From contig CAIIXF020000004.1 in assembly GCA_903813345.2 (NCBI GenBank), positions 18,277,513 through 18,341,512 of the forward strand: a stretch of DNA of 64,000 nt, given 5' to 3'. Below the pieces are notes generated by a model. That model had not been told where the DNA came from, did not search any database, and was given only the letters and a program-made list of their open reading frames with translations. The position numbers and the translations under genes were made by a program. Below, piece by piece: positions 21,501-42,100 of the stretch. Source of the DNA: Owenia fusiformis. Lineage: Eukaryota > Annelida > Polychaeta > Sabellida > Oweniidae. Positions within the stretch are counted from its first letter, which is position 1, and each line of letters opens with the position of its first letter.

Positions 21501-24500
21501 TTAATAGCCGAGTATGCCTGGGTTGTCTCCCTGTCCAAGAACGTGTCGTATAGTGGGGAGAAGTTGGGCCACTTCTGTGGGGGGACTATTCTCACGGCTC
21601 ATTGGATAATTACTGCTGCTCACTGCCCCTGTGGAATTGGAAGTCCGTGTTGTGATGAAAATAGCGAAGGCGTTCTCACCTTCAAGTAAGTACACATTCA
21701 TTGATTGTTAAGTATATGAAAATAGCCTTTGAAAAGGCATATTGGCCTCTCATCACAAGTCACAAGTCAAATAACGTTTTGCGACCTCTCCCTCTACCCT
21801 AAAGACAAGTGAAAATGTTAGTATAACAAAACTTTGTCAACCCGCGAAAATTAAAATGGGCTTCTTTTTGATTTTGACTGTTCTTTTTGACTAGTGCTCT
21901 CAAAAATGCATGCAGTTTCAAGATATTGAAAATATTGATATATTTCCCATGACATTAATGTCGATGGACTAAGCCTTTATTAGTTCTGTTGATAACATCC
22001 TTGTTCTTCTTCTTCCCTTTTGTGGTTTCCCTTAAATGTCTGACTTATTTTAGTGAAGAAAAATGTGATACAAGCACTTGGGAAGTAACAGCCGGAGAAA
22101 TTCAGCTCAATCGTCCTAATCCTGAACAAGTCAGGGGAGTCATGAAAATTGTAATTCACCACGACTATGTAACCAACCTAGGCAATGATACAGCGTTAAT
22201 ACGACTGGACACCCCGTTTGACTTCTCCGAATTCAAGGTGCAACCATCTTGGATTCCTTCCAGTATATGTACGGGCTTTATGAGTGAGCAGTGTGTCGAG
22301 CATCTACAACTGGCCGAGCACCAAGATTGTGAGGTGATCGGTTGGGGAAGCTTTACGAGTATGTGCACGCTTATTTTGTTTGAATGTGGGCCCAAGGAAG
22401 AACTTATTGCAATCGCTGAGTTTTGATCACAAGTGGGACAGTTTTTTTGTGAAAGGGCTAATCTTCATTTCGGCTCCCGTGTCATCTTCGCACGCTCGGT
22501 TTCCCGTCATTTTTTAGAAATTATTGAATTCTCACACAAGTTTAAATAAAGGAAAGATGGGTTTATAATGTTCTAAATCGCAACCTGATAAAAATAACAA
22601 ATTCCGTTCTGAAATCAAGCCCCCTCTCCACTTCTACAATCCTCTTTTTCCTAACATTGTTTAAACTTTACTAAATCCCCTATATATTTAGAGATGCGTA
22701 GTCTGAAAGCGTTCATCAGCGATTGGGACAATGAGACATACACTGCAGATACTGAGGGAATCAAAGGAAGTCAGCCCTGCTCGGTTAGTGTGCACACCCA
22801 ATCCATGTAGATAAACATTTAGATTTTGAAAAATACTTTATAGTATCTAGAGTGATAGCAATACTGTGACTGAACTCACAATGATGAAGGAGGTCTTTTT
22901 ATGTATTTTTTGAAATCAAAATAAGTGTAGTGATGCAGGTTTCAGTTTGACAATGAAACAATTGTTACAAACATAGCTCCATCTTTTTTAAGCCATGGAT
23001 TTTAGTTAACGAATAATCTCTTCTGTAGAAATATGGAGATGGTTCATCAGTTCTGACGTCGCGAACTACGCACCGTGCACTCGAACCACGATTCTCACAT
23101 CGTGAACGTAAAATCTTTAGTCGCGCACCACTATTTATCGTGGTTCGAGTGCAAGGAACGTAGTTCGCTTCGTCAGAACTGATGTTCGCGTTGGTGGAGT
23201 TCTAGGAGGCCTGATTATTAAATAGCGAACTGAAAGTTTAATAGCTGCAATTTCCAAAATGATGTGACCTATTGCCACATGCTGAATGTTTCAGGGCGAC
23301 AGCGGGGGACCCCTGATGTGTACGCCTCAGAACGAGAAGATCAAAGTCTTGATAGGCATAATGAGCAGGTTAACTATGAACACAGAATGTGGTGGTAACA
23401 ACCAGGGCTTTACTATTCACACAGCTGTTCCTTACTACCTGCCATGGATAAGAGACGAACTAACAGGTGAGAATATAAGTATATGAAATGAGCAAGTTAA
23501 CTATGAACACAGAATGTGATGGTAACAACCAGGGCTTTACTATTCACACAGCTTTTCCTCACTACCTGCCATGGATAAGAGACGAACTAACAGGTGAGAA
23601 TATAAGTATATGAAATGAGCAAGTTAACTATGAACACAGAATGTGATGGTAACAACCAGGGCTTTACTATACACACAGCTGTTCCTTACTATCTGCCATG
23701 GATAAGAGACGAACTAACAGGTGAGAATATAAGTATATGAAATGAGCAAGTTAACTATGAACACAGAATGTGATGGTAACAACCAGAGCTTCACCATTCA
23801 CACTACCTGCCATAAGAGACAAACTAACAGGCCTTTACCAGAGCATACCTCTCATTACTTACGTGACACTGCCATCATAATTGCAATATTTTGATTATTT
23901 GCACATAAACCAAACTGCTGTACGATTCAGGCAGAGGTGGGGAGGGCTGGGATGATACATTCTCCAAAGAGCCTTGGACTGCCTCACTGTGGAAATCTAA
24001 GAGTTATTATGGCGAGCCCATTGGTTACTTTTGTGGAGGAGTCATCATAACTGAAACATATTTGCTGACGTCATCATCCTGTCTGTGCCTCCTAAATAAT
24101 TACTGTTGCGATGAAGCAAACCAGTTTTTGTGAGTGACCTTCTTTTTTGAAACTATTTAATTGATATTTTGGTGATGCTTATGTTGAAAACGGACATATT
24201 TTTAGAACACAGTTTGGAAAATATCCCTGTATGAGAAAATGCTCATGATGTAAATCTCATGGATTGTGATTTTTCACTTTCAATGGGTACATGAAGATGT
24301 CAAATTTCCCTTAACGTTGCTCTGCTGAAATGTGTGTATTTCTTACAGACATGATAAATGTGACCTGGACGACTGGTGGGTGCAAATAGGCCAATGTAAA
24401 CTTGAAGACCTTACGAATCCCTTCCTCACCAGGCGGATCAGATCCCCAGTAATCCATGAGTTCTACACTAATCCGGAGACAGGAGAACCCTTGAACGACA

Positions 24501-27500
24501 TAGCATTGGTTGAGCTAGAGGACCCGCTAGATTTCGACGATCCTAGTGTGGAGCCTGTTGTGCTACCTGCCAGTGAGTGTTCCAATGAAGCTGGGAAGAA
24601 GTGTAAGGAAGAGCTAAACGAAGAAACGGTCTCTAATTGTCATTTTGCTGGATGTGGAGGGAGTTCCCGTAAGTATATGTTCTTTGTATTGTAATTCGTC
24701 CAAAAGCAATGAAGATACCCGTTGAGTAAATCCCTGCTTCATAAGAAAACTGGTCTACCACTGACATACAATGTTGGACATTCCCGTTCTCATCGTCTTC
24801 GTGTTACTTTTAACTTGTTGCTTTTTATTTAATCCCAAGTCAGCGAAATAAGACTTTTAAAGACTACAATCCTTGAGAGTGTTAGTTACTTATTTACATC
24901 ACCAAAAATAAAGAATTGGCAATATTATCTGTTTAACATAATATCACATTATTTAGACTACTTTTTCTTGTAGAAGGTAGTGGCTCATCAGATAAATTGA
25001 AGATCACTAATGCTACTATTCTCTTCGCTGATAATGCTACAATTGTAGCCCAGGGGACAACAGGGAGTTCTCTGTGTCAGGTAATGTCATTAGCCTTGTC
25101 TTCAGCCCATTCTGTGAGCAATTGCAACTTACGGCCGTCGTAGCTTAAAACATTGACTGGTGTATTGTCAGTTTTTATGCCCATTGGACATTTTATAGTC
25201 TTGCTCAAAGACTGTATCCACCCCCCCCGTCACCTTCACTCTCTTTACCTAGCAATATACAGAGAGAAGGATAAGGGGGGTACAGGGTCTTTTGAGCAAG
25301 ACTAGACATTTTAGGACCACTCTTTAACAGAATGTAGGATGACATGTTTCGTGACGATATTATTAAAAAGTGTACTACAAGTGCCTTTTTTGATTTCAAT
25401 TGTCTTGACAGTGATTATATAAAATCAAATTGTTTTAGGAAGATGCCGGAAGTCCATTGATCTGCAACATTGAAAATCAAACAGTTGCTTTTGGAGTCGT
25501 AAGTCAACCGTCTGAGAGAGAGGATTGTTCTGCAAATGGCAAAACTGCCATTACTCCAATCGCACCACACCTTGAATGGATAAGCAGGAAGATAGGTAAT
25601 TAAAAAGGGGACTTCCAAGAATAGACTGGTTGAACCATTGTGTTCGAAATAGAATGGACGCCTAAACAGGTCCCTTTAATTCATATACTCTGGGCTGCAA
25701 CTCAATATTTGGTTTTCCATTACTTTCAAGAATAGACTGCTTGAACCATTGTGGTTTCGAAATAGAATGGACGCCTCAACAGGTCCCTTTAATTCATATA
25801 CTCTGGGCTGCAACTCAATATTTGGTTTTCCATTACTTTCAAGAATAGACTGCTTGAACCATTGTGGTTTCGAAATAGAATGGACGCCTCAACAGGTCCC
25901 TTTAATTCATATACTCTGGACTGCAACTCAATATTTGGTTTTCCATTACTTTCAAGAATAGACTGCTTGAACCGGACCCTTGAACCATTGTGGTTTCGAA
26001 ATAGAATGGACGCCTCAACAGGTCCCTTTAATTCATATACTCTGGGCTGCAACTCAATATTTGGTTTTCCATTACTTTCAAGAATAGACTGCTTGAACCA
26101 TTGTGGTTTCGAAATAGAATGGACGCCTCAACAGGTCCCTTTAATTCATATACTCTGGGCTGCAACTCAATATTTGGTTTTCCATTACTTTCAAGAATAG
26201 ACTGCTTGAACCATTGTGGTTTCGAAATAGAATGGACGCCTCAACAGGTCCCTTTAATTCATATACTCTGGGCTGCAACTCAATATTTGGTTTTCCATTA
26301 CTTTCAAGAATAGACTGGTTGAACCATTGTGGTTTCGAAATAGAATGGACGCCTCAACAGGTCCCTTTAATTCATATACTCTGGGCTGCAACTCAACAAT
26401 TGGTTTTCCATTACTTTCAAGAATAGACTGCTTGAACCGTTGTGGTTTCGAAATGGAATGGACGCCTCAACAGGTCCCTTTAATTCATATACTCTGGGCT
26501 GCAACTCAACATTTGATTTTCCATTACAGCGGATGATACCTGGTTTCCATGGGGCGCATGTTCAGTGACGTGTGAACAATGTCCCGATGGTAAATGTCCT
26601 GTTGGAACTCGCAAGAGGTCCAGGCCATGTCCTTACCCAAGACACGGCAAGTATAGGGCCAAAGGCAAAGATTTGTATCAGAGGTTTGACATCAACTGCT
26701 TGATTCACGAGGAAGGCAAATGTCAACCTAAATGTAGAGGTATGTCGAGTATTGTACTGTACTGGACTGTACTGTTCTGTACTGTACTGTACTAGTATTC
26801 CATTCCATGGTGTGAGTTTATTGGGTCCTCTCCTGTTGACTGGATTATATTAGGATAATGGGCTACTTCTTTTGCAAAACAGTTCGTTTTAGATCTATAA
26901 ATAGTAGTATTTCAACATCGTATCGTAACGACATACGTTGTCCGGTGGTCGGCATCTGTAACAAATGGCAGCTGGTGACATTTTGCAATGTAATGCCTTG
27001 TACGTATTCACTTGGATCACAAATTGTAGATAAATGTCCAACAATTCAATCCTCTTCCAAGTTACGTGTACTTGGTGGTCCTCCTTTCAAAGAGGGACAA
27101 GAGGCGAGGTTTCAGTGTGACCCTGGGTATGCTCTAGATGGCCCAAAGTCCATTAGGTGCAAGGCTGGTGGCGAGTGGAATGCTGGACTCCCCAGATGTA
27201 GGAAACTAGAGGGTGAGTAGATATGCAAGGGGCACGAAAAAAATTTATGAAATAATCCATCAGAAACGTGTTATCAATAATGTGTTAAAATCTATTAAAG
27301 ACCGCATGTACTATACAAGGAACCCAAAAGAATGCATGATTTATGACTGAATTATAGAAATACATGTGTAGAATTGTTTTAAAGTAACCTGCAAGAAGTT
27401 CGATGTAAATCGAGGTGACCACATCACTGTCAAAGGAAAGGCCCCATATAAACCTGGTCAGAAAGTAAGGTTTAGATGTGACGATGGCTTCAAACTACAA

Positions 27501-30500
27501 GGGAAGCGTGCACTGCAATGCAAAAATGATGGCTCTTGGAATGGAAAAATTCCAATATGCAACAAGAAAGTTGTTGCAGATGAAAGTAAGCCTTACAATA
27601 TTTAATGTTGTCCTTTTGCATAAATTGTGACTTAATCATACATACCAAATTTCGACAACAAAAAGCCCAATGACAAATTAAAAATCATGTTCTAAACAAT
27701 TTCTGTAGTTTACCCTATTTGAACATCAAAGCGTCAAGAAGATTACTTTCTCATCGTTAGTCTGATACGCCCATTTGATTTTCGTATTTCTAGAAACTTG
27801 TTCTGAAATAAAAGTAGGCGATCAAATGAAATTCAACGGACAAGCACCATACACACCTGGTGATAAAGTGACGTTCACTTGTGCTGATGACTATGACCTA
27901 CAAGGTGTAGGAAGTCTAGTTTGTGGGAAGAACGGACAGTGGAACAAGGCCCCTCCCAAGTGTATCAAACGTAAGAACCATTTAACTTTAAATGAATATA
28001 TAAAACAAGGAGCATTTTCATTGATAACCAGAACTCCTCTAAAGAACTTATTCTAAATAATTTAATGAAACAATTGTAAGATTGCGTAATATAGTAGTAT
28101 GGTGTAAAATATATGTTTTCTACTCTAGTTTACGGTATTTAACTAAATAACATTTATTGCCAATTAAATTCCTCAAATCCTTACAACATGGAAACACTGA
28201 TTTTTAACTTATTTTCAGGCACTTGTGAAATCAACATCCGTGACCGTGACAGTGCGCATATGACGGTAAGGGGAAAAGCTCCATTCACAATTGGGGAAAC
28301 GATCACGTTTACTTGTGACGCTGGCTACAAGCTAGAGGGCGCTGCTTCTCTACTGTGTAAAGGGAGTGGGCAGTGGGACAAGGAGACCCCTAAGTGTATC
28401 AAACGTATGTATTTTTAGAAATGAAACAAACATAACTGGTTTTGATATATACCAGTATATCACAAACCGAGATATGATAATTTATGTTTAAAATGTTACA
28501 AGTTGGGCAGACTCAAAAACGGACTCGAAGGTAGATGCATTTTATAAAAATATTTTTTTTATTGACTCATGAATCGTGTAAATTGTCTAACAAATAGAAG
28601 AACAGGTAGACGATACTAAACATGTAAAAGTACGTTATGTTGTCATTCTATTTCATCTTGATAATGTTTACACTCGATACTTTAGAGACGTGTCCTGACA
28701 TCGATGTGACTGGATCGCCGGCATTGAGAGTAAGAGGAAGGTCGCCATTCACACCTGGCGAGAACGTAACATTCAGTTGTGGTGACACCTATGAATTGGA
28801 AGGCCCTGATACTATCCAATGTAAACTGAGTGGAGAGTGGTCTAAAGATCCCCCAAAATGTGTAGAACGTATGATTTTCTATTTCCTAACCAATCACATT
28901 GCAAATACATGTATAATCTCATATTGTATCATCAATATTTTTTCATCAATACCTTTGTGCAAGTGCAGTTTATAACACATTTTAGCACTGGATTTCATTC
29001 TGTGTTTTTTTAACTTCTTTAACTACGATCTGGAATTATTTTGCATTGTTTTCACATTTGTGTACAATGTAAACAATTTTGGACGTCTGAAATGGACGTT
29101 TGTCAAGCATTTACTTCATTTTAATGGACTGAATACCGGCCTGGAATATGAATAGGGGATAAGAATCTTAAAATAAAGAATGTGAAGGCAAAATGGAATG
29201 CTTACCGCACCCTTCCCCACTGCACTAACACCTCTTCATGATGCTCTGGTGGATTTGCCTCCTCTTGGTATCTGTAGGAAAAATATGGAAAAAGATTTTT
29301 ACAATTTATTTTTACATTTTTACCAAGAGAAAATGTCTGGCTTTGGAAACCTATGTGACTTCGGACATACGGAAATGTTTCAATGCTAATAGATTAGCAA
29401 CATTGCAATGCTCATACACTGGCAACATTGCAATGCTCATACACTGGCAACATTGCAATGCTCATACACTGGTGACATTGCAATGCTCATACACTGGCAA
29501 CATTGCAATGCTCATACACTGGCAATATTGCAATGCTCATAGACTGGCAATATTGCTATGCTCATGGCAATATAACAATGCTCAAAGACTTGCAACATTG
29601 CAATGCTCATACACTGGCAACATTGCAATGCTCATAGACTGGCAATATTGCAATGCTCATAGACTGGCAATATTGCTATGCTCATGGCAATATGACAATG
29701 CTCAAAGACTTGCAACATTGCAATGCTCATACACTGGCAACATTGCAATGCTCATAGACTGGCAATATTGCTATGCTCATGGCAATATAACAATGCTCAA
29801 AGACTTGCAACATTGCAATGCTCATACACTGGCAACATTGCAATGCTCATAGACTGGCAATATTGCTATGCTCATGGCAATATTACAATGCTCAAAGACT
29901 TGCAATATTGTAATGCTCATAGATTGACAATATTGCAATGCTTATAGACTGGCAATGTTGCAATGCTCATAGATTAGCAATATTGCAATGCTCATCATCA
30001 ATTGGCAATGCTGCAATGTTCTTAGATTGGCAATATCGCATTGTGCATAGACTGGTAATGTTGCAATGGTTATAATCATATATGACACTGCTGCAATGCT
30101 CATAGATTGCATGTGTTCGTTTTTCAGTTGCAATATGTCCTGATATAACCATTGATAAGCCAGACGAGAGACTCAAGATACTGGGAAAACCGCCATTCAG
30201 GGTGCATGACAAAGTCCGAGTCGGTTGCATCCCAACTCAAATAATGAGATCACGTAAATTTGATGTAATTGGGTCATCAATCTTAGCATGCAAGCCTGGT
30301 GGCGTTTGGAATGATACTCTTCCCAGTTGTGTATTTAAAGGTAGTTATAGGTGTCAATTAACATATAGTGGACTCTTAGAAGACTATAAATGATTCGATA
30401 AATTCTATTTAGATGCTTGTAGAGCGTTGTAGAGGCTTGAAAATGAGAAGTTCTACTTAAGATTTCGGAGGCTTCATGTGCACAACTCTATGTATTTCCA

Positions 30501-32324
30501 AAAGGATGGGTAGATGCATGATTTGCAATGGCCGAATGGTACTGGTGTTATATAACTCTAATGTGAATTATTACCATGAGAGATGCGTTGAATATTCCAG
30601 GTAAACCAGCATCTGGTTGTAGAAGAGATAGAAACTTCCTTCCTGTTATCGATCATATTGATGCAAGTAGTTCCCCTCCAAGTAAGTTCATTAAAGATTT
30701 ACGGAAAGAATTTATTTGCAAGTTGTCGTTTTGATTAGATGATGGAAATGTCAAAATAGCAAAACACCCAGTCCAATGATGAACCTTTTGACTTTATTTT
30801 TTCTGAAAATGGCTTTCATGAAATCAAAAGCTCATCATTAATAAATCGATCTGTCAATATTGATAATGCTGAACCCAAGTTATCATATGATTTGGGATCT
30901 GCTACCCTTTATGGACGTTTATCGTGCACCTATAATATACATGTACTGTTTGAACATTCATTTACAATTATTCTATTTCTATCAGTTTGCGCTGATCTGA
31001 TGGTAGTACTCGACATATCATGTTCCCTTCGAGGATGCACCAAAGAACGCTTGAAGGACGCGGCGGCTGACGTAGCAAGAGCATTGTTGGAATCGTCTAG
31101 AGATACAACTCGAATAGGTGTGATAGCCTACAGCAATGAAATTCTCGAGGTGATACCTCTTGGTAAGTAGCTTGAATAGGTGCGATAGCCAACAGTAATT
31201 AAATTCTCGAGGTGATACCTCTAGGTAAGTAGCTTGAATAGGTGCGATAGCCAACAGTAATGAAATTCTTGAGGTGATACCTCTTGGTAAGTAGCTTGAA
31301 TAGATGTGATAGCCAACAGTAATGAAATTCTTGAGGTGATACCTCTTGGTAAGTAGCTTGAATAGGTGTGATAGCCAACAGTAATGAAATTCTTGAGGTG
31401 ATACCTCTAGGTAAGTAGCTTGAATAGATGTGATAGCCTACAGCAATGAATTCTCGAGGTGATACCTCTTGGTAAGTAGCTTGTACAAATCTGATTTCCC
31501 AGTCTACACGTAAATGGACTCGTACATCGCAGAGTTGTATACACAGTAGTGTTAATATACTTCTAATACTTTAATTCTTACAGAAAACAATCACTCTGAA
31601 AAGAAGATCCTGAACATAATTGATAGACTGAACACCACAAGTCCAAAATGTAAGACACTCACTCACGCTGCTTTCCAAGATATCAGGAAGCAATTTGCCA
31701 GCGTGGCGTCACCTATCGGTACAAAACAAGTAGTGCACCTCTACACAGATGGGCTGACTTTTATGCCAAAATATAAACAAGAGTCATTAGATGAGGCAAA
31801 GAAGTTAAAACAAGAAGGTGTAAAAATGAATGTTATTGCTGTACCAAATATGTAAGTAATCACTGATATGTTTGAAGCAAATTCTATATTTGATAAAGGG
31901 AATCGCGTTGCAAAAAGATCTGCAATAGATACAATGCATTGACGTTAATAAATAATGCTCTTTCTCAATCGCAAGTGAACAATCATTCAACAATGATCTC
32001 CAGTTCTATCATTCCTACTTAACGCGACGTTATTTTTCTATCTAATATATCAACTTAACCAACATAAGAATTAGAAACCATCGAAAATAAATACTTTGAT
32101 TTGATAATTCATTAGTTTTTCTTAAAATTTTATTGTGCGCTTGTTTCACGGCTAAGCTTTTTCTATACTGTACTCCTTTATCGATGTTTTTTAGACACGG
32201 GAAGAATGGCACAACAGAGTTCGAACAAATTCCATCCAGCCAAAAACATCTATTTAATATAACATTTAGCGATGTGACCCAGAAATTGTATACTCGCCTC
32301 CTCAAAGATGCAGCTTGTTCCTAG
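7911..32324 (+). CDS. Secreted multi-module S1 protease-like / sushi / vWA protein, 23 exons, 1480 aa
   Basis: Exons: 7911-7980, 9323-9556, 19248-19475, 20867-21046, 21463-21685, 22054-22358, 22692-22783, 23295-23466, 23931-24129, 24349-24668, 24974-25080, 25439-25595, 26530-26739, 26883-27212, 27385-27585, 27794-27970, 28219-28404, 28686-28868, 30128-30340, 30601-30681, 30986-31162, 31584-31851, 32195-32324. All junctions are GT-AG and every phase agrees; total 4443 nt ending TAG. Modules: signal peptide, lustrin-like, VWC-like, TSP1, S1 (triad present), S1 (inactive), TSP1, six CCP, vWA. Most module borders are phase 1, typical of shuffled extracellular modules. The CCP/vWA/S1 set recalls complement factor B/C2, but those run CCP-vWA-S1. 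Role in complement-like or clotting proteolysis is inference only. It could be two genes misjoined, but no stop, start or polyA site interrupts the chain. Confidence 0.82.
7981..9322 (+). other. Intron 1
   Basis: Contains a fragment (about 8455-8650) of the interspersed family also seen at 17100-17540 and 47690-47935 (shared text around TCTGAGAAGTTCAAAT and AATGACCTTCTCAGG). A GGCGGTTGGCGATCGGC-rich simple stretch lies at about 8408-8457. Near 9060-9250 is a degenerate ACAATC/AATATACAATC simple repeat. No genes seen. Confidence 0.5.
9577..10285. repeat. (ATGGT/ATGAT)n pentanucleotide-like array in intron 2
   Basis: About 700 bp of imperfect TATGG/TATGATA units, interrupted by a GC-rich segment at 9695-9842. 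Long open frames on the minus strand (runs of YHTIPYHT) are by-products of the repeat, not genes. Confidence 0.9.
9695..9842. repeat. GC-rich inverted-repeat segment inside the ATGGT array
   Basis: A roughly 150-bp block dense in TTTCGGTGCC and GCCGAAACGG motifs. Its ends are inverted copies: TTCGACGCCGTTTCGGTG at the left, against the inverse of CGATGCCGAAACGGCGCCGAA at the right. Base composition differs sharply from the flanks, consistent with a small inserted element. Confidence 0.5.
10286..12022 (+). other. Intron 2 segment without recognised features
   Basis: AT-rich. Short open frames only; no module, tRNA, or clear inverted repeat recognised. Confidence 0.4.
12023..13996 (+). mobile_element. 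Unclassified 1974-bp DNA transposon with TTGTAA target duplication
   Basis: Terminal inverted repeats of about 60 bp start CACTGTGGCTAGTCGATC (12023) and end with the inverse (13996), differing at only a few positions. An exact 6-bp direct repeat TTGTAA flanks both sides (12017-12022 and 13997-14002). Inside, coding-like remnants are visible: 12386-12535 has C-x-x-C then H-x4-H spacing (FLCIHCLDKH ... HTITRHPHEE), like a zinc finger, and 13257-13391 reads as an exon-like acidic stretch ending at a GTAAGT donor. A second inverted pair (around 12700 and 13220; CCTTGCCCAAGTCGGT) suggests a further nested insertion. CACTG ends recall CACTA/Chapaev elements, but a 6-bp duplication does not fit. 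Confidence 0.65.
14003..14552 (+). other. Intron 2 segment without recognised features
   Basis: AT-rich spacer between the 1974-bp transposon and the next interspersed repeat; nothing recognised. Confidence 0.4.
14553..15026. repeat. Interspersed repeat, intact copy
   Basis: Begins TATTGGCAAAACTGCCC and ends near GGGCATTTTGGCC. A second copy lies at 16524-16708 plus 18342-18633, split by a 1.6-kb insertion; the two differ at only scattered positions. The copies share a 62-codon open frame (14742-14930, 18351-18539), but it has no family features. Confidence 0.75.
15036..15340. mobile_element. 305-bp MITE with 19-bp perfect TIRs and 9-bp target duplication
   Basis: Ends CAAGGAGGATTGGCTCCCA and its exact inverse. 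The 9-bp sequence TAGCCACAT is duplicated on both sides (15027-15035 and 15341-15349). A 9-bp duplication is typical of MULE or Merlin-like transposition. No coding capacity. Confidence 0.85.
15449..15565. repeat. Hairpin MITE
   Basis: CAGTTATGTCC...CATTGAATATATGCCT pairs with its inverse at the right end (AGGCATATATTCAATG...GGACATAACTG), with a short palindromic centre (CCCGAGCTTGCGAGGG). Flanks to about 15770 may belong to the same repeat. Confidence 0.75.
15566..16523 (+). other. Intron 2 segment without recognised features
   Basis: Contains possible remainder of the preceding hairpin repeat to about 15770. Otherwise no feature recognised. Confidence 0.35.
16524..18633. repeat. Second copy of the 14553-type repeat, split by a 1.6-kb inserted repeat (about 16709-18341)
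   Basis: The left half matches up to ...CTACTTTTT (16708) and the right half resumes at GAAATAATTGG (18344), exactly where the intact copy is continuous. The insert has short inverted ends (ATCGCACTT near 16709, AAGTGCGAT near 18313), a GGGCGTGC simple repeat, and long internal tandem copies (starts near 16797, 17573, 18172) with GGCGGCCATTTTGAATTTTT and AGGTCA-rich text. Related sequence recurs at 8455-8650 and, inverted, at 47690-47935. No coding capacity. Confidence 0.75.
18900..19220. mobile_element. Double-hairpin MITE, copy 1
   Basis: Two hairpins in tandem. The first pairs ATCGTGTGATC and the GATTTC/ACATTC arms with an inner CAATACAG motif. The second pairs TTGAAGTGCAATACAGGATA with its inverse around GGCACTCGACTTCGTCTCGA. 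It ends 27 bp before exon 3 of the multi-module gene. Copy 2 is at 20539-20859. Confidence 0.75.
19476..20538 (+). other. Intron 3, 5' part
   Basis: AT-rich. Repeated ATTTACCGAA/TTCGGTAAA motifs between about 19550 and 20300 suggest a degraded inverted repeat element; boundaries not resolved. Confidence 0.35.
20539..20859. mobile_element. Double-hairpin MITE, copy 2
   Basis: Same family as 18900-19220. Strong inner pairs: TTGCTACTGAGATTGTCCCC against GGGGACAATCTCAGTAGCAA, and GAAGTGCAATACAGGATATA against its near-inverse at 20812-20832. It ends only 7 bp before exon 4, so it supplies much of the 3' splice-site upstream region. Confidence 0.8.
21047..21462 (+). other. Intron 4
   Basis: Contains a short direct duplication (GCTGTGCTCATTATTTT, about 21188-21225). 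Nothing else seen. Confidence 0.4.
21686..22691 (+). other. Introns 5 and 6
   Basis: 21686-22053 and 22359-22691 flank exon 6 (22054-22358). No repeats or extra exons seen in either. Confidence 0.4.
23045..23184. mobile_element. Hairpin MITE in intron 7
   Basis: CATCAGTTCTGACG...GCGAACTACG...GCACTCGAACCACGAT pairs with ATCGTGGTTCGAGTGC...CGTAGTTCGC...CGTCAGAACTGATG. Nearly perfect palindrome of about 140 bp with a short loop. Confidence 0.85.
23361..23833 (+). repeat. 127-bp tandem array spanning the end of exon 8 and its 5' splice site (about 4 copies)
   Basis: Unit starts at 23361, 23488, 23615 and 23742 (exact 127-bp steps). Each of the first three units contains the last 106 bp of the protease exon (from ATGAGCAGG/ATGAGCAAG through AACTAACAG), the donor GTGAGA and 21 bp of intron to TATATGAA. 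The fourth unit is degenerate and has lost the donor. The model uses the first donor (23467). Using a later one would read into an in-frame stop within the intron part of the unit (TATATGA). Confidence 0.92.
24669..24973 (+). other. Intron 10
   Basis: 305 bp; nothing recognised. Confidence 0.4.
25195..25307. repeat. Small hairpin MITE in intron 11
   Basis: TAGTCTTGCTCAAAGAC at the left pairs with GTCTTTTGAGCAAGACTA at the right; inner stretches ACCCCCCC and GGGGGGT also pair. About 110 bp. Confidence 0.65.
25617..26528 (+). repeat. 113-bp minisatellite filling intron 12 (8 copies)
   Basis: Units begin (AAGAATAGACTG) at 25617, 25728, 25841, 25954, 26080, 26193, 26306 and 26419: period 113, with a 2-bp deletion in the first and a 13-bp insertion before the fifth. 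The array starts about 20 bp after the exon 12 donor. It ends at the exon 13 acceptor, where CCATTAC is followed by AG|CGG instead of TTTCAAGAATAG. Open frames through it result from the repeat, not coding. Confidence 0.92.
26530..27212 (+). other. Exons 13-14: second TSP1 and first CCP (sushi)
   Basis: Exon 13 (26530-26739) opens a TSP1 (WFPWGACSVTC, then GTRKRSRPC) with a Cys-rich insertion. Exon 14 (26883-27212) closes it (WQLVTFCNVMPC) and then encodes CCP1 (KCPTI...RFQCDPGYALDGP...CKAGGEWNAGLPRC). TSP1 plus sushi adjacency occurs in several secreted adhesion and defence proteins. Intron 13 contains a short GTACT simple repeat (about 26751-26795). Confidence 0.78.
27385..30340 (+). other. 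Exons 15-19: CCP/sushi modules 2-6
   Basis: Each exon (27385-27585, 27794-27970, 28219-28404, 28686-28868, 30128-30340) encodes one complement control protein module in phase 1-1. Each has the hallmark C ... F.C..GY.L.G ... C...G.W....P.C. Modules 2-5 share a G(K/Q/R)(A/S)P(Y/F)xxGxxVxFxC core, so they probably arose by recent local exon duplication. Module 6 is divergent: its second half reads GGVWNDTLPSC and its middle has an extra loop (RVGCIPTQIMRSRKFDVIG). Confidence 0.85.
29385..30110 (+). repeat. 25-bp minisatellite in intron 18
   Basis: Imperfect units of GGCAACATTGCAATGCTCATA plus CACT/GACT. Higher-order blocks of about 100 bp repeat the ...CTATGCTCATGGCAATATAAC... variant. The long plus-strand open frame through it is not a gene. 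It ends about 17 bp before the exon 19 acceptor. Confidence 0.9.
30682..30985 (+). other. Intron 20
   Basis: 304 bp; nothing recognised. Confidence 0.4.
31109..31482 (+). repeat. 62-bp tandem array spanning the end of exon 21 and its 5' splice site (6 copies)
   Basis: The marker CTTGAATAG starts at 31171, 31233, 31295, 31357 and 31419 (62-bp steps; the last unit is 61 bp). Each unit contains the last 54 bp of the vWA exon (GAATAGGTGTGATAGCC ... GATACCTCTTG) and the donor with its intron start GTAAGTAGC. The first unit (31109-31170) is the real exon end. The donor sequence is kept in every unit, and each is followed at once by an in-frame stop (GT AAG TAG). Confidence 0.92.
31852..32194 (+). 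other. Intron 22
   Basis: 343 bp; nothing recognised. Confidence 0.4.
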
Positions 32325-32629
32325 GTACATGCATTTAATCACAACAACGTAATGACATAGTTCACATATACTTATGCATATATTCACACAAAGTTATGCA
32401 AGGTGTGTACAATTCCAGCCAATGAGAACACACTATTTCACGTAACTGCATTCCGTTATATAACCAATAACGCAATTGTTGTATGGTTGTCTAGGTGAAA
32501 ACTTGGGATTACAGATTAAAATTGATGCTTTGCCAACTTTACCCTTGCAAAAAATTCATTGAAGATGTTCTTTAAGTGATTTTGTATGTTTTAGGTGATT
32601 TTGTACAAAATATTTTCCAATGTGTGTCC

Positions 32630-32762
32630 AAGACTCAATGCATTGTGACTGTTTCATTCCACTCGATCAGGAATTGTTTCCTACACTCTGCATTCTCGTT
32701 GCACAGTTGAAAAGTTGAAAATTTCAATGGAATGATTTAGCATGCAATGCACTGAGTCCAAT
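32630..32762. repeat. Inverted-repeat segment, possible small MITE
   Basis: CAAGACTCAATGCATTGTGA...TTTCATTCCA pairs imperfectly with TGGAATGATTTAGCATGCAATGCACTGAGTC. About 130 bp, in the presumed 3' UTR region. Confidence 0.5.
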
Positions 32763-32989
32763 CACAACATTGTATAGTCATGCTATATCGGGTAACTAAG
32801 GATATAGGATGTTCTTTACTCATCAACTTTCAGAAATGGACTGGTTACAATTCTTATATAAACCAACTTATTTCAGGTGGGTGTGGATGCCTTTGCATAT
32901 GCCAGCAGCCAATCCAGCCTCAATGTTCCGATATGACACTTAGTCTCAAGACTAGCTGAAACATGGTCTATAATTTGAATGGATGTAAT

Positions 32990-32995
32990 AATAAA
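32990..32995 (+). promoter_or_regulatory. Candidate polyadenylation signal of the multi-module gene
   Basis: AATAAA about 670 bp after the TAG stop. First clear canonical signal downstream; usage not tested. Confidence 0.4.
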
Positions 32996-35900
32996 ATATG
33001 TTTATAAAACAATCAACTCTATCTCAGTCAGAATTTCTGGATCCAAAAATGGAACTAGATCAAGGTCATGCCAAGAGTGTTAGTCACTTAATTTATTGTA
33101 AAAGTATTGGTATATCCCTTCCAACCCTATTGAAGGTTGCTAAAAACCTATTAACTATACTTGGTAAATGTGTAAGTGGTGAAAAAGTGATAATTTGAAA
33201 ATACAGTATTCATCTCCATTATGCTGCCATCTTTCAACACTTCTGCGAGAAGTCACGTCATCAACTACTAGACTTTGCTAAGCACAAGGAGAGCAGAAAA
33301 ATGATAGAAATGTCTTGCTTAATATCTAAGCTTGGTATTTAAAATGAAAACATTTGGAGTTGAAATCTTAGACAATTTTAAAGTTTCTTTTGCTTTTGGA
33401 ATACTGCTACATGCTGATTTAGGAGTCAATAATACAAGTTTCTGTCACATTTATTTTTCAAATATTTTTTTTTAATGTTGAATTGAACAATTCATTTTTA
33501 ATGAGCAAATCTGACCTAACCAAAAACTTTTTTTATTTTGTTTGACGTGTATTAGTAGTTTCAAGACAGCAACATGTTAGTAAGGTCAGAAAAATTGTCA
33601 CAGTTTTACAGTGTTTTTACTGCCCTCAATCCATGTGTGAATATTTTAAAAACAGATTTTCTTGGAAATTCTCTTTTATACTGTAGTGCTCCAATAGTCA
33701 AGTTTTGGTTTCTTGTCATACTCCAGGAATTTGGCCATTACTTCTGTACACTGTTCAAAATAACAAAATAAAAGAAACTGATTTTGAGATCAAACATTTT
33801 ATTGAAAAGTTGGTTATTAAATTAAAGCAGCTACAATGCGCCAGCTTTCTACAAGTATGTATCATATCACTGGTCAGATGCGCCATCTATATTTAATTAT
33901 ATACAAGATGTATAGACTTCAACTATGTACACACACTTTTATTGTCATGTAATATACTCAAACAAAATGACACTGGCTGGGACAAGTATGTTTGCCCCAG
34001 ACATGATTACTCCAATCCAATCCAATCCTGGTCTGTACTTCCAAGTGATGCTACAGAAATGTGACATTCACATGTTATTAACATAAACATAACATTGATA
34101 GTCTTTGTCAACCCTTTTGCTTCCATTCTCCATTCTCTCTCATTATATAATGTGAGGGGAGAGGCAGAGTTAGGCAAGACTATTACATCAATAGGTTAAT
34201 GACATATGTAGCTAAATTCATTCATAATGGAAATAAATATTGCATTTATTGCAACACTTCAACCAGAATAAGATTACATCTCAACAAATCTCTCAAAGAA
34301 ATATCAACTCAATTCAACTGTTCTTGTTTGCACCGCAAGCACAATTATATTCTTTATTTAACAAGTTTACATTAAGGTAGATCAAATCAGCTGACTGCAA
34401 TTATTACTTACATCTTTTACAAGTAAGCTTGTAAACATCCATCGTATGCAAACAAACATTTCCTAATATGCCCCTTCTGATTGGCAAAATAACCAGTATT
34501 GTACTTGTACATCTCCATTAAATTTGATTAAAATCTTGCCAGGGCATTTCACAATTCAGGTTTTCACGAAGGCAATGTTGCAAAATAAACATACTCCATT
34601 TCCAGGATAAAACTGTTGCATAGAAACTGCCTTATAAAACTACATACATTGTATTTACATGTGAGATTTCAGTGGTTCAACTTACCAGTAGCTAGCTTTA
34701 CCTCCTCTCTTGACAAACAAATACTTGTACAGTACTATCAAATAGTTTTCTAAACTAGAATAAAGAAAAACAGGTTACACAGTTTCAGACCCCATCACAC
34801 CATTAGCTTGCTTGTAGTATCATCTGAGCTCAATGAGGGACTGTCCTTTCTTCTCAAATGCATATGGCCCCTTGATCAAGCTATGATACAGCAATTAAGT
34901 GAATGGTATGATGGGGACTGAGTGGTAGAACCGTCATTACACATAAGGTAAGAGAGAGATGACAAAATAATCAGGTATGTTATCACACTTGGGTTTCAAT
35001 GAACAACTTATTATAATGCCACTGCAACTCAATTGTCCAACCATATATTTCTTAGAACAGCTTCTACATTGACATAATGTTCACTACATAAAGTTAGTAA
35101 AGAGAAAATCAATATGTTAAAACACTACATATTTCACTAAGAAAATGATAAAATATATAAATGGACAGCACAGAAAAATTCTGCCTTGTTTGCATGAGAA
35201 AAATGTTTGGAAGTGGCACCACTACTGTTTGGCTTCATTGTTAAAGCCATACATATTGATATTTTCTAGGCCTACTGTTATTTTACAAGGCCTACTCATG
35301 ACACATGATATTGTTATTTCACAAGGCCTGTTGCAGAGTTGCAAGACATCACTGGGCCTGCTGTTAATTTACAAGCGTTTCACTAGGTGTTACTTAGGCA
35401 TATTATTTGAGGCCTATTGATATTTCAGATGGCCTGCTGTTTTATTGTTTCTTCACAAGGCACACTGGATGTGTTTGTTATCTTACTAGTCAAATTATGA
35501 GTCACAAGACCCACTGCTACATATCTAAGCCTAACAGATCAGTTGCGGTAGAGATCTCATTTAACAAGATTTCAAAGTTATTCAGCAAAAGGTCTATTGC
35601 TTTATATTTGTTCAGTGGGCCTTTGAGTTATTTCATTAGGCCTATGAAGTTTATTCATGAGACCTACTTTTATTTCATGAGGCCTACTAGCTATTTCATC
35701 ATTAGGCCTCCTATAGTGTTATTTCATTAGGCCTACTGCTGTTTCACTGCATATAACTGGTTAAATGAGCAATCTCGTTCTGTTCTCTTACATATAATAC
35801 TCACATCTGTTTCACATGATCATTAAGATTTACTGGGAGACTATATGAAGGATTATCTAAGCTAAACATTGAAACAGAGTGCTTCTTTAGCTTAAATTAT

Positions 35901-36380
35901 CCAACTAAGTTTAACTGATTTTCAGAAGTTTAACGAGTCTTTTAAAAATAATCCAAAATGTGAACATGAATAAAGATATGTTATCGCATTGAGAATAATG
36001 TTAAAAATCCATCTCCATACACTTAAGTCTCCTATAGTCTTATGTGTGGTCAGGAAACTAGGAGAACTTACAAACGAACATGGACAGTGTTGTTATGTAT
36101 TAAAAGCATTTACAAATTGGACATCAAATGGTTTTATATAAAACAAAAATTGTTTCAAAGGGAGCAACATTAACATGTTTACCAGAGCTACATTCTAGAC
36201 CTTGACATGTCTCCCAATTTTACACCAATCATTAGACATTAGCATCTTGTGATAAACCTTTTAGTCTCTCATTGGAAGTTTCATTCCCCACTGTCTTATC
36301 ACCCCTTATTCTACATCTTACAGGGGTCTTATGAGAATGGACTAGTCCATTATGCGACCACTATGGGGGTGCTTTGTTGA
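32996..36380 (-). other. Convergent intergenic region and FXR 3' UTR
   Basis: No coding exon seen. Most of it is probably the 3' UTR of the minus-strand FXR gene, which stops at 36381. Candidate minus-strand AATAAA signals (TTTATT on plus) occur at several places, e.g. 33938-33943; I cannot choose between them. The AGGCCTACT-rich stretch at 35265-35750 is listed separately. Confidence 0.45.
35265..35750. repeat. Degenerate AGGCCTACT-based repeat in the FXR 3' UTR region
   Basis: About 20 copies of (A/T)AGGCCTACTG followed by TATTTCA-like text, spaced about 20-35 bp, with many variants. The core AGGCCT is a palindrome. Confidence 0.7.
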
Positions 36381-39158
36381 TCACTCTCCATTCACCATAG
36401 GTGTGGATTTACTATCAACTTTAGCTTTCAGATTCTTAGGTTCTGATTCACTTTGTTGTCCATTTAGTTTTGCTGTTGCATTATTTGGTTTAGGATTTGT
36501 TGAGTTAGGTTTGGGGTCGCGTTTACGTGGCGGACGTTGATCTTTTGGCGGAGATTTATCCTTACTATTAATGTTTTTAGAGTTTTTATTATTATCAGCA
36601 GGAGCTACACCATTCATATTAACACTATATGTTGTCGCAGATTTAGTAGAGTCTCCCCCGCTAGAGGGAGCTGGCTGTTTGCCGCGAGATGGAGACTGAT
36701 CAGATCGTCTGTTTTGACTGTTAGATCTGCGAGTACCAGCACCTGAAGTCCTGGCTGACTGCACATTCTGGTTTGAGGGATTTCTATTGGCTGATCGGGG
36801 CTCATCACGTGATTCATATGGACGGTTGAAATCATCATTTGAGTTGTAGCCACCTCCTCCACGACCTCGTCGTTGGCGCCCTCTATATCCTCCACCATAC
36901 TCGTCTGCAGATTGGTATCCCCCAGAACCACGCCCTCCTCGGCCACGTCCCCTGCCCCGTCCCCTGGAGCCACCCCGAGGTGCGTATCCACCACCCCCTA
37001 CTCCAGTGTCTGTATCAACACCCTCTCCTTGACTGGCATAGTTTGACACACTATTATCAGTCTCAGTGCCTGTCTCAACTCCATTTCTGGCTTTGTTCAT
37101 ACGATTACGACGACGTCTTCGTCTCCTATTAGGTCCATCAACTGATGACACACTCTCTGGAAAATGGATGAACCATGTACACTTCAGCACTTTAAAATCT
37201 CAACAATAAGCAGTACAATACCATATTTGTGAGATGAGTATATACTATTCGATCCAATGTCTTTAAGGTAGACTGAGTAGAATGAATTATCAGACTCGGT
37301 TATTGATCCAGATATTTTCCCCATTTCAATAAAGATTTTTAAACTGTAACCATGGTGCAAGCCCATTCCAAAACACTTACCTTGATCTTGGCTGGTGACG
37401 CTAGACACATCATTGTTGTCAAGAACAGTTGTTTCCTCATCACCATAGCGACGCCTTCTATTGTTGTCATAGTCAGAATCACCAGGGTTCACTGGAAAAC
37501 AAGTGTCACATCCACATTAGAAAATTGAAAATGTAAAAACAATGTGTAATTTGGAGATGAAGAAAATTAAAGGCCCATAACATCCTCCACTCTAGACTCA
37601 ATGGCCAAAATCTTGCAAACCATATCCTTAGATCACATTGAAGTCATTCAATAAGACTTGTTTTTAGATAATGAACTAAAAATAGAATTATATGCTGAAT
37701 TATTAAAATTTTTGTTGGTCCAATATTGGAGTTATGGGGTTTCCACTAACTGTCAAAAGTAGAGGTATGATAAACACTGGCATATTCTGTCATTCAAACC
37801 CCTACTCCAACTTAAGAGTCAAAGAAATGTTAATTGTAGTCTTACAGGAAGAAATCTATGAATTGATATGAATAAAAAGGGTCTGTCGATGGAAATACTC
37901 AAAAAGCTATTCTTTGGTACATAAACAAACTACATGCTATTGAAATAACCTGATGCAAAACTTATTTTCTAATTAGTAACTAACTCACTCGATCTAAGTT
38001 TTGGAACATGCATTGGTTGTAGGAACCTGTGTGTCTTCATGCCTCATGTGGTAACCCCATATTTGGTATTCCTTTAATCCCTTATATAGCAATCCCTTAT
38101 TTGGTAATCCTTTAACCCATTATAGGGCATTCCTTAAATGGTAATCCCTTATATATACTCTTCAATCTTTATATCTGACCACCAGGGCATTGATATATTG
38201 TGGCTTTTGTACTATGTGCCCATCTCAGCTGACATGCATCATTCTCTGTGGACTAACCACTGTGTAAATGTATTAGTGCATGCTATTCAAGGGAGAATAG
38301 TCTATTGTGTGACTACCCAATGAAACAAAATGGCTTGTTTATTTCTAACCAACATATAACACAAACTCGCAAGCCTTAACTTCTAGAAACCCAAAATAAG
38401 CAGTCACTCAAGTCCAAACTGTCAACCAAGCACAAATTGGACCAATCAGAACTCACCATTGGTCATTGACCCACCACGTCCCCTCCCCCAGCCCCTCCTT
38501 GTTCGCCCCCTACTGGAGCCCCCAATGAGGCTATCAGTTAAGTAACCACTCTGACTTCGTGAACGACGATTCTCTTCACGCATAACCTCTTCGTTCCAAT
38601 CCAGGATTGGTCGATTTAACGGAGGTTGAAGGTCATTTTCATCTGGTCAATGAAAAAGTTTGCCATATAGTGAGTACTTTTTGTCAATGTTTAATGAATA
38701 ATCCCAGTTTTCTCTTAGACCTCAGACACAATCAAACTCTGTCATGTAATGAACTGGGATAGGCAAATCTGTTTTATTTGTGACCAAGGTAATAAACTCA
38801 ATAAAAACCATAATAATTACAATGCAGACTTTTGTAGATTATACATTTGTACAAGTTTCACATTTCTATACATAGTGCTGCTTCTTTTACATAAATAATA
38901 AAAATGCTAAAATGTTTGCAACTTCTCACCTCCTGAGTTGAAGTCTCCTCCTCTACGGCCTCCTCTGCCCCAGCCACCTCGTCCACGTCCCCGCCCACGT
39001 CCTCCTCGGCCCCGCCCCCTGTCTTCCATATATGGTTCATAAGGCTGCTGTCTGCGCTCTCTAGGGGGAGGGAAATATGGGCCAGGCTGTTGCTGTACAT
39101 TCAAACTACGCAACTGCTGATCTAACTCAAGCTTTTCTTGACGTAGTTTCTCAACATC
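36381..39158 (-). other. FXR exons 12-15: export-like stretch and RG/RGG-rich C-terminus
   Basis: Residues about 361-793. Exon 12 begins [15 protein letters not shown], in the position of the family's nuclear export signal, then has a first RG box ([20 protein letters not shown]). Exon 13 keeps the family's LDW motif region and adds [14 protein letters not shown]. Exon 14 is acidic/Asn-rich. Exon 15 (258 aa) has RRRRRRNR, a second RG box ([13 protein letters not shown]) and a long Ser/Asn/Lys-rich low-complexity tail. The whole protein is longer than vertebrate FMR1 or FXR1 (about 620-630 aa), mostly because of this tail. Confidence 0.85.
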
Positions 39159-42100
39159 CTGCAATAATATTCTTTCATATTAAAAAATACTTCTGAAAAT
39201 ATAACGCAATATGCAAGTCAAAGTCAGCTGAACAAGTATACCACAGTTACTGGGCAAAAAGCTGATTGTTGGTCACAAAAATACAACTTACTACTTGCTC
39301 AAATGTCCATCACCAGAAGCTTAAAGTTTCTCAAAACATTTTGCTACCCAAGTCATGAGTTTTGTTTTAACTACTTCTTTCAAGACTACAATTTTATAGG
39401 AATGTGATAACTAGGCTGTTAACCATATATAGTTAAGCTATAGTTAAACTTGTATCTCAGACATGGGCTTTGCCAGAAGCAGCTTGATCTTAGGTGTCTG
39501 TACTTTTAATTTGCTGATAGCTTGCTTACTAGCATTGCTGATATCATGTATTTAACATACCTTTAGATGTGTCAAGTGATATTCTAGCAATAACTAACAT
39601 TGCTGATATCATGTATTCAACATACCTTTAGATGTGTCAAGTGATATTCTAGCAATAACTAACATTGCTGATATCATGTATTCAACATACCTTTAGATGT
39701 GTCAAGTGATATTCTAGCAATAACTAACATTGCTGATATCATGTATTTAACATACCTTTAGATGTGTCAAGTGATATTCTAGCAATAACTAACATTGCTG
39801 ATATCATGTATTCAACATACCTTTAGATGTGTCAAGTGATATTCTAGCAATAACTAACATTGCTGATATCATGTATTCAACATACCTTTAGATGTGTCAA
39901 GTGATATTCTAGCAATAACTAACATTGCTGATATCATGTATTTAACATACCTTTAGATGTGTCAAGTGGTATTCTAGCAATAACTAACATTGCTGATATC
40001 ATGTATTTAACATACCTTTAGATGTGTCAAGTGATATTCTAGCAATAACTAACATTGCTGATATCATGTATTCAACATACCTTTAGATGTGTCAAGTGAT
40101 ATTCTAGCAATAACTAACATTGCTGATATCATGTATTCAACATACCTTTAGATGTGTCAAGTGATATTCTAGCAATAACTAACATTGCTGATATCATGTA
40201 TTTAACATACCTTTAGATGTGTCAAGTGATATTCTAGCAATAACTAACATTGCTGATATCATGTATTCAACATACCTTTAGATGTGTCAAGTGATATTCT
40301 AGCAATAACTAACATTGCTGATATCATGTATTTAACATACCTTTAGATGTGTCAAGTGATATTCTAGCAATAACTAACATTGCTGATATCATGTATTCAA
40401 CATACCTTTAGATGTGTCAAGTGATATTCTAGCAATAACTAACATTGCTGATATCATGTATTCAACATACCTTTAGATGTGTCAAGTGATATTCTAGCAA
40501 TAACTAACATTGCTGATATCATGTATTTAACATACCTTTAGATGTGTCAAGTGATATTCTAGCAATAACTTGGCATTGCTGATATCATGTGTTTAACATA
40601 CCTTTAGATGTGTCAAGTGATATTCTAGCAATAACTAACATTGCTGATATCATGTATTTAACATACCTTTAGATGTGTCAAGTGATATTCTAGCAATAAC
40701 TAACATTGCTGATATCATGTATTTAACATACCTTTAGATGTGTCAAGTGATATTCTAGCAATAACTTGGCATTGCTGATATCATGTATTTAACATACCTT
40801 TAGATGTGTCAAGTGATATTCTAGCAATAACTAACATTGCTGATATCATGTATTTAACATACCTTTAGATGTGTCAAGTGATATTCTAGCAATAACTAGC
40901 ATTGCTGATATCATGTATTCAACATACCTTTAGATGTGTCAAGTGATATTCTAGCAATAACTTGGCATTGCTGATATTCTCAATCGTGCCAACAAACAGG
41001 AATGGAACAAGGCCCTGCAAGGAGGCAACACTCTTAAATAAAAACATGTAAAACATTGCTTTTTGCTTTAAAACATACATGTAAAATTAAAGATGACAGA
41101 CAATAAAAATAGTGAAGAAAGGGGATATGTCATGAGCTTTCATTTCTAATGGACATCACAGCAAGAATGAACATAAACATATTTTTTCAGAATTAGAGAA
41201 TTTGTATTAGTTTTTTTTAACTTATTTGTATATTAATTGAAATAACCAAATGTTGTGTTTGCTTACATCTTCCCGTTGACTGGCATTTTCCGTGTCGTTG
41301 TCTCCCTCTATCTTTACACGGACAACACCAGATTTGTCAACCATTTCTTGGATGTTACGACCATTCTTGCCAATTACTTTAGCTGCAAAGATGCGAAAAT
41401 GAACCATAAAGATTTTCATTTTATATACAAATATGCTAGTACAGTATAACCTGTGTACAGCTAACACTTTGAACCAGTCAGGTTACTAAGTCAGGTTTGT
41501 TTTTATCATTTGCTTCTATTGCTCCCATGATCAACCAATTATGCATATTTTGTCATCTTAAATAATATAAAATCTTGTACACAGTAATATTGCTCATTTC
41601 TAAAAAAATGCAAGAATTAACAATGTTTTCTTTTAAGGAAGTTCCTTTCTCTTATATCTTACGTATTAGTTCTCTTGGCACATTGTAGCTCTCCTCTCCA
41701 AATTCCAGCATGTTCCTGGCCTCTTTCACGACCTCCTCATTCTGGAATACAATACACTCTAATTCAGCCTACATGTCATATACCAGGAGTGAAACATAGG
41801 AACTGTTATTCATTTCCAATAATACACCTGCCCATATATTTACTATTTAGCTCACTAATTTTCTACCATTGTGAGAAAGGACTTAACACAATACAGAGAA
41901 CATGCAAAAGTTGCAATACACTCTTTGGAAAGAGACCAACAAAAACATTATTCACTACTCCAAGACCCACCACTGATGAGCATGTTAATAAAGAACATCG
42001 TAGACTTTTATCTCCATTCTCGGAAACTAACCTCGCCATGTACTGTAAACGTGCAGGTGTTCTCATCAAGCTCTATTGCAGTGATGCCATCTATCTTCCT

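Follow-up and report, generated by a model that had tools for sequence, protein, structure and literature searches.

The window analysed here, a stretch of 64,000 nucleotides of the annelid Owenia fusiformis (GenBank assembly GCA_903813345.2, contig CAIIXF020000004.1, positions 18,277,513 to 18,341,512, forward strand), carries three tandem arrays that straddle exon–intron borders. Each array starts inside an exon, includes the 5' splice site and extends into the intron, as observed with Tandem Repeats Finder (TRF) and from the joined reading frames, and as proposed in a first-pass annotation of the sequence. The span given there (23361–40978) held, with one refinement, the units of the FMR1-like array being 65 or 66 bp long. 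The exons and their arrays were located as follows.

23295..23466, + strand: trypsin-like exon, the last 107 bp of which are the first copy of array 1 (joined reading frame, Pfam Trypsin)
23360..23803, + strand: array 1, 127-bp unit, 3.5 copies of exon end, donor GTGAGA and intron start, with 3 donor copies (TRF, sequence)
30986..31162, + strand: VWA exon, the last 51 bp of which are the first copy of array 2 (joined reading frame, Pfam VWA)
31112..31483, + strand: array 2, 62-bp unit, 6 copies of exon end, donor GTAAGT and intron start, with 6 donor copies (TRF, sequence)
40928..41014, - strand: FMR1-like KH exon, the last 50 bp of which are the first copy of array 3 (joined reading frame, Pfam, PDB 2qnd)
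39528..40977, - strand: array 3, 65/66-bp unit, 22.3 copies of exon end, donor GTATGT and intron start, with 22 donor copies (TRF, sequence)

The copies matched at 96% (TRF score 825), 94% (639) and 97% (2733) in arrays 1, 2 and 3, respectively. The arrays filled 73–79% of the introns that follow (337 of 464 bp, 321 of 421 bp and 1400 of 1769 bp). When the exon ending at the first donor was joined to the next one, the reading frame remained uninterrupted for the trypsin-like exon (23295–23466 to 23931, +), for the VWA exon (30986–31162 to 31584, +) and for the FMR1-like exon (40928–41014 to 39158, -), reading in each case across one existing intron. The joined exons matched the Pfam families Trypsin (7.1e-11), VWA (5.1e-17) and KH_1 (1.7e-5). 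Those of the FMR1-like gene also matched PDB chain 2qnd, the FMR1 protein, at 2e-22, and FXMRP1_C_core at 2.4e-5 with 25.5 bits, under the cut-off of 29.6. Use of the second donor would produce a frameshift in all three cases. In array 3, copies 1, 4 and 7 carried the exon-type variant and were 66 bp long, the remaining copies measuring 65 bp. The recurrence at copies 4 and 7 appears as if the exon-end block had been re-amplified once the FMR1-like array existed. A mobile element or introner was looked for in this array, one of 28, with a 235-base query made of the FMR1-like exon and the first units: the nine matches all belonged to the locus itself, although failure to match elsewhere is no proof that a sequence is rare.

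Two other repeats were noted. An array of eight 113-bp units (window 25611–26527) abuts the border of a TSP1-like exon but does not cross it, stopping about 4 bp short of the acceptor AG. A short repeat (38959–39020) lies in the coding sequence of the FMR1-like gene, within its RG-rich end. Elsewhere in the window, at 3971–5218 (-), reading frames are present which we take to resemble a mariner-type transposase.

The frequency of border arrays was estimated from exon matches sampled elsewhere in the genome. The first sample contained the families Myosin_head, Cpn60_TCP1 and Kinesin (269 of 296 rows kept), and the second one tRNA-synt_1 (27 of 27 rows) and UCH (23 of 73 rows), making 50 matches. 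Rows removed before counting included 17 of the 18 copies of a kinesin array and 10 of the 12 rows of a myosin exon cluster. For UCH, the first 22 rows were used together with one lying in a fetched stretch, and 50 were left out, 10 of which were copies of one array. The surroundings of the matches were cut out and submitted to TRF. Splice sites were called by a matrix trained on the sampled exons, and doubtful cases were judged by eye. First-look candidates were scored for 65 of 210 in myosin, 122 of 218 in kinesin, and all of them in TCP1, tRNA-synt_1 and UCH. Arrays with an exon part below 10 bp were not counted as border-spanning.

Among the 319 exon matches, 25 further border-spanning arrays were found, distributed over all five families. 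The 319 matches correspond to 638 exon-match ends, an upper bound on the number of true ends, some matches being array copies (L048, L067). The recurrence expected by the first-pass annotation was observed; its restriction to 5' splice sites received no support, as 7 arrays were at donors (kinesin 3, TCP1 4) and 18 at acceptors (kinesin 10, TCP1 3, myosin 3, tRNA-synt_1 1, UCH 1). The higher frequency at acceptors had a p-value of 0.04, which became 0.18 once the three donor arrays of the window were included. With automatically called splice sites alone, arrays were present at 6 of 174 donors and 12 of 195 acceptors. Border arrays were held by 19 of the 95 gene clusters, three of which had three arrays each. 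In one kinesin gene, the exon start was present 18 times at intervals of 159 bp (158 for one of them), the last copy continuing into the real exon. The acceptor array of locus L194 (G000 C9:8170419-8174271), in an exon that we take to be USP22-like, contained 11 copies of the exon start spaced 150 bp apart, all of them in frame and free of stops. Of the sampled arrays, it is the one that could most readily turn into coding sequence.

Several candidates were rejected on inspection. The L048 donor array was identical to the acceptor array of the same locus, the L146 donor and L102 acceptor arrays came from over-extended matches, and the L080 donor and L035 acceptor arrays reached just 4–5 bp into the exon. 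The L186 acceptor array (73% match) was excluded from every border count. A separate observation concerns G000 C9:37986009-37994334 (-), partly in L157, where twelve matches to Myosin_head positions ~18–84, with differing scores, lie within 8.4 kb; these may represent clustered alternative exons in a muscle myosin gene.

Copy-by-copy anatomy was established for 26 arrays, the three of the window and 23 from the first sample. The exon part measured 13–139 bp and was shorter than one unit in every array, and the 131 extra copies were all on the intron side. The GT or AG was kept in 128 of these copies, compared to 117.7 expected from their other positions, which indicates that there is no ongoing loss of spare sites. 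Latent splice sites, of which the earlier reading had anticipated donors, were present in the introns at the sampled borders too. The same reading had remarked on the similarity of the unit sizes (62, 65 and 127 bp, the last about twice 63.5). Unit length varied from 28 to 259 bp (median 80 bp), with 4 of the 26 units within 63.5 +/- 4 bp, and the similarity of 62, 65 and 127 looks like chance. Multiples of three were not preferred (8, 11 and 7 arrays for the three remainders). Use of the next copy would cause a frameshift in 18 arrays, an in-frame stop in four and an open insertion in four. As the protein would be broken in 22 of the 26 arrays, it must be kept intact by use of the exon-most copy, by which we mean the donor that comes first in a donor array and the acceptor that comes last in an acceptor array. 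From protein homology, the exon-most site is probably the one used. Compared with the authentic site, the spare site scored higher in 13 copies and lower in 47, with roughly equal scores in the other 69, so that site strength does not account for the choice in every case.

Each of the 26 arrays covered one exon end, a situation different from whole-exon duplication or mutually exclusive exons. No array scoring at least 80 was found wholly within a stop-free exon match of the first sample. The exon part of the unit was longer than the intron part in 20 of the 26 untied cases among the 28 border arrays (p = 0.009, medians 46 and 23 bp). This pattern was set aside, as the 10-bp cut-off biases it in part; with two excluded arrays added, it concerned 20 of 28.

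Whether borders hold more arrays than chance would place there was examined by counting each array once, at its exon-proximal edge, for units of at least 45 bp. Sixteen edges fell in the 31.9 kb of sequence situated 10–60 bp inside exons and eight in 108.4 kb of intron, 10–200 bp outwards. The density ratio was 6.8 (95% interval by genes 2.6–18.8) and fell to 5.1 once two of the three richest genes were removed. When arrays were collapsed to one unit, they were present at 3.9% of borders and 0.64% of intron points (ratio 6.1, 3.4–10.8). Random relocation of the 32 long-unit array–flank pairs, among which an array in a short intron may count twice, predicted 9.3 border-spanning pairs, whereas 23 were seen. 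A frequency no higher than random minisatellite birth, named in the first-pass annotation as the refuting outcome, was not obtained with the pooled long-unit arrays, but the second sample alone, the myosin genes and the coverage measure showed no excess. The guanine–cytosine (GC) content of border arrays was 0.377 versus 0.329, exon sequence being included in the former. GC richness was discarded as a cause, the long-unit arrays outside borders matching the intron value (0.330 versus 0.334, n = 10).

Several results weigh against a concentration at exon edges. The per-array analysis was chosen post hoc and relies on few arrays. The excess was driven by kinesin (9 versus 2) and TCP1 (5 versus 1) and was absent from myosin (2 versus 3) and from the second sample (0 versus 2). 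In this replication, with its 50 matches, arrays had been predicted on both sides; the outcome was no donor array and 2 clear arrays at acceptors. Units of 20–45 bp showed no excess (ratio 1.0). Finally, coverage by arrays at borders was 0.70, 0.62 and 0.59 times the intron rate (arrays take in 6.9% of intron points), a background which includes the intron copies of the border arrays themselves and in which each array occupies its original stretch multiplied by its copy number. The two backgrounds, coverage of the present-day intron and edges counted per array, therefore disagree.

These points are accommodated by a first alternative, in which ordinary minisatellites are born everywhere at one rate and those crossing a border survive since splicing ignores the extra copies, without any hot spot. 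The low border coverage and the lack of excess in the second sample, in myosin and among short units fit it. The 6.8-fold density of long-unit edges in the exon zone, still 6.1-fold after collapsing, does not, and we regard this explanation as rather unlikely. According to a second alternative, births are also uniform but border arrays live longer, an exon copy that cannot be deleted keeping the other copies alike. Border arrays were longer than other arrays, and more uniform than the other long-unit arrays (95% versus 85% match, p = 0.003, n = 23 and 11), and the exon-type variant recurred inside the FMR1-like array, all of which could be expected under such survival. Old and diverged border arrays are what it predicts, whereas the match values point the other way, although homogenisation could mimic youth; we judge it improbable. 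The uniformity and the recurrence of the FMR1-like variant fit active growth from the exon end, better survival being also compatible with them, and we would attribute the border excess to more births rather than to longer survival.

A third possibility is that the arrays are functional, their tandem donors or acceptors yielding regulated isoforms. The latent sites, intact slightly above expectation (a difference to which the central alignment position may contribute), and the USP22-like array, open through all its copies, would agree with a function; with no bias towards multiples of three and so many arrays that would break the protein, this is very doubtful. An assembly artefact is hardly credible: tandem arrays are difficult to assemble and copy numbers may be wrong, but at many loci, spread over several chromosomes, substitutions and indels distinguish the copies, and similar amphioxus structures stood up when reads were re-examined, according to excerpts of PMC3902484.

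We propose the following model. Tandem duplications would arise repeatedly across exon edges in the Owenia fusiformis genome, the duplicated segment combining the end or the start of an exon with one splice site and part of the intron. The segment would then be amplified like any minisatellite, with copies accumulating on the intron side. The change would be silent if splicing keeps the exon-most site, and the spare sites would remain intact. Because selection would remove arrays inside exons and tolerate those straddling a border, exon edges would be where long-unit minisatellites originate or persist, and introns would lengthen from their ends. The process is recurrent and general, occurs at both borders and is possibly concentrated at exon edges. 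Taken as a whole, from recurrent duplication at the exon edge and growth on the intron side to exon-most splicing and edges as sites of birth or retention, this model is the explanation towards which we lean, with some reserve. As the exon-most site is transcribed first at donors and last at acceptors, a first-come rule fails to explain the choice at both borders. Exon definition, the pairing of sites across the exon, may be the reason for it.

A stronger formulation is put forward tentatively, as we hold it to be somewhat short of probable. Exon ends would be hot spots, with arrays at about one exon end in 25 and in about one sampled gene cluster in five, and introns would be extended from their ends as exon sequence is amplified again and again. 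Among as many as 22 near-identical sites, the spliceosome would choose the exon-most one at both borders, even over inner copies with higher scores. If exon ends do attract tandem duplication, introns would have a way of lengthening that is linked to splice sites, and the latent sites could become a source of new exons or introns. The question of what selects the outermost among many near-identical sites becomes testable: exon definition predicts the outermost site at both borders, a rule based on the nearest partner across the intron predicts the innermost one, and ordinary genes offer a graded series of arrays, from 2 to 22 copies. Under the stronger formulation, the genome would amount to a collection of natural experiments in splice-site competition, with the outer site as the winner. 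The arrays are also a hazard for annotation because of the false exons they produce; a single search returned 18 domain matches from one kinesin array.

Rows of competing splice sites are familiar from closely spaced tandem sites such as NAGNAG; in Owenia they are 28–259 bp apart and derive from minisatellite copies. The literature searches listed no annelid or genome-wide account of border arrays, or of their frequency, among their matches. Another annelid gene with tandem exon copies is the earthworm metallothionein, in which copies of exon 4 are missing from the final transcript; the consulted portion of PMC12783039 describes them as exon duplications of unknown purpose, and they may be relatives of the border arrays. 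In potato, a tandem duplication likewise crossing an intron–exon border created a new intron (PMC4974935; this type of model is also treated in PMC3087553, both sources in extract), whereas in Owenia an existing intron appears to have been lengthened, the joined reading frames being unchanged. The closest structures are the amphioxus "mirages", a name dating from work on Adh in 2002 for tandem repeats across exon–intron borders (PMC3087553, in extract), and they contradict the earlier suggestion that the class was undescribed. The extracts of PMC3087553 and PMC3902484 mention Adh3, the globins BflGb6 and BflGb9, PGBD5 (added as a case in PMC3902484) and TnC (mentioned there). The globin mirages occupy both exon borders, reverse transcription polymerase chain reaction suggests that they are spliced regularly, and intron gain was proposed from them (PMC3087553, same extract). 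As in mirages, the Owenia unit spans the exon–intron boundary, at either border, in 28 arrays (3 in the window and 25 sampled), and the splice signal is carried by most copies (AG or GT in 128 of the 131 extra copies of 26 arrays). Mirages are apparently spliced normally; in Owenia, normal splicing is presumed, with indirect support from the joined frames. In contrast to the handful of amphioxus cases, the 28 arrays come from one assembly of an annelid, occupy mostly acceptor borders in the sample, reach 22 copies and allow a frequency to be estimated. Amphioxus itself was considered as the host and rejected: a muscle myosin exon was nearest to the scallop chains 2ec6, 2os8, 1dfk and 1b7t (229 bits, versus about 205 for human and about 169 for fly chains), and a search for GFP gave no match, although such a negative is no proof of absence. 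Searches for COX1 and tunicate GH6 also gave no match, which carries no weight either way. The Owenia arrays are thus a known kind of structure, to which the present work adds another phylum, an estimate of frequency and an exon-most rule that would apply at both borders.

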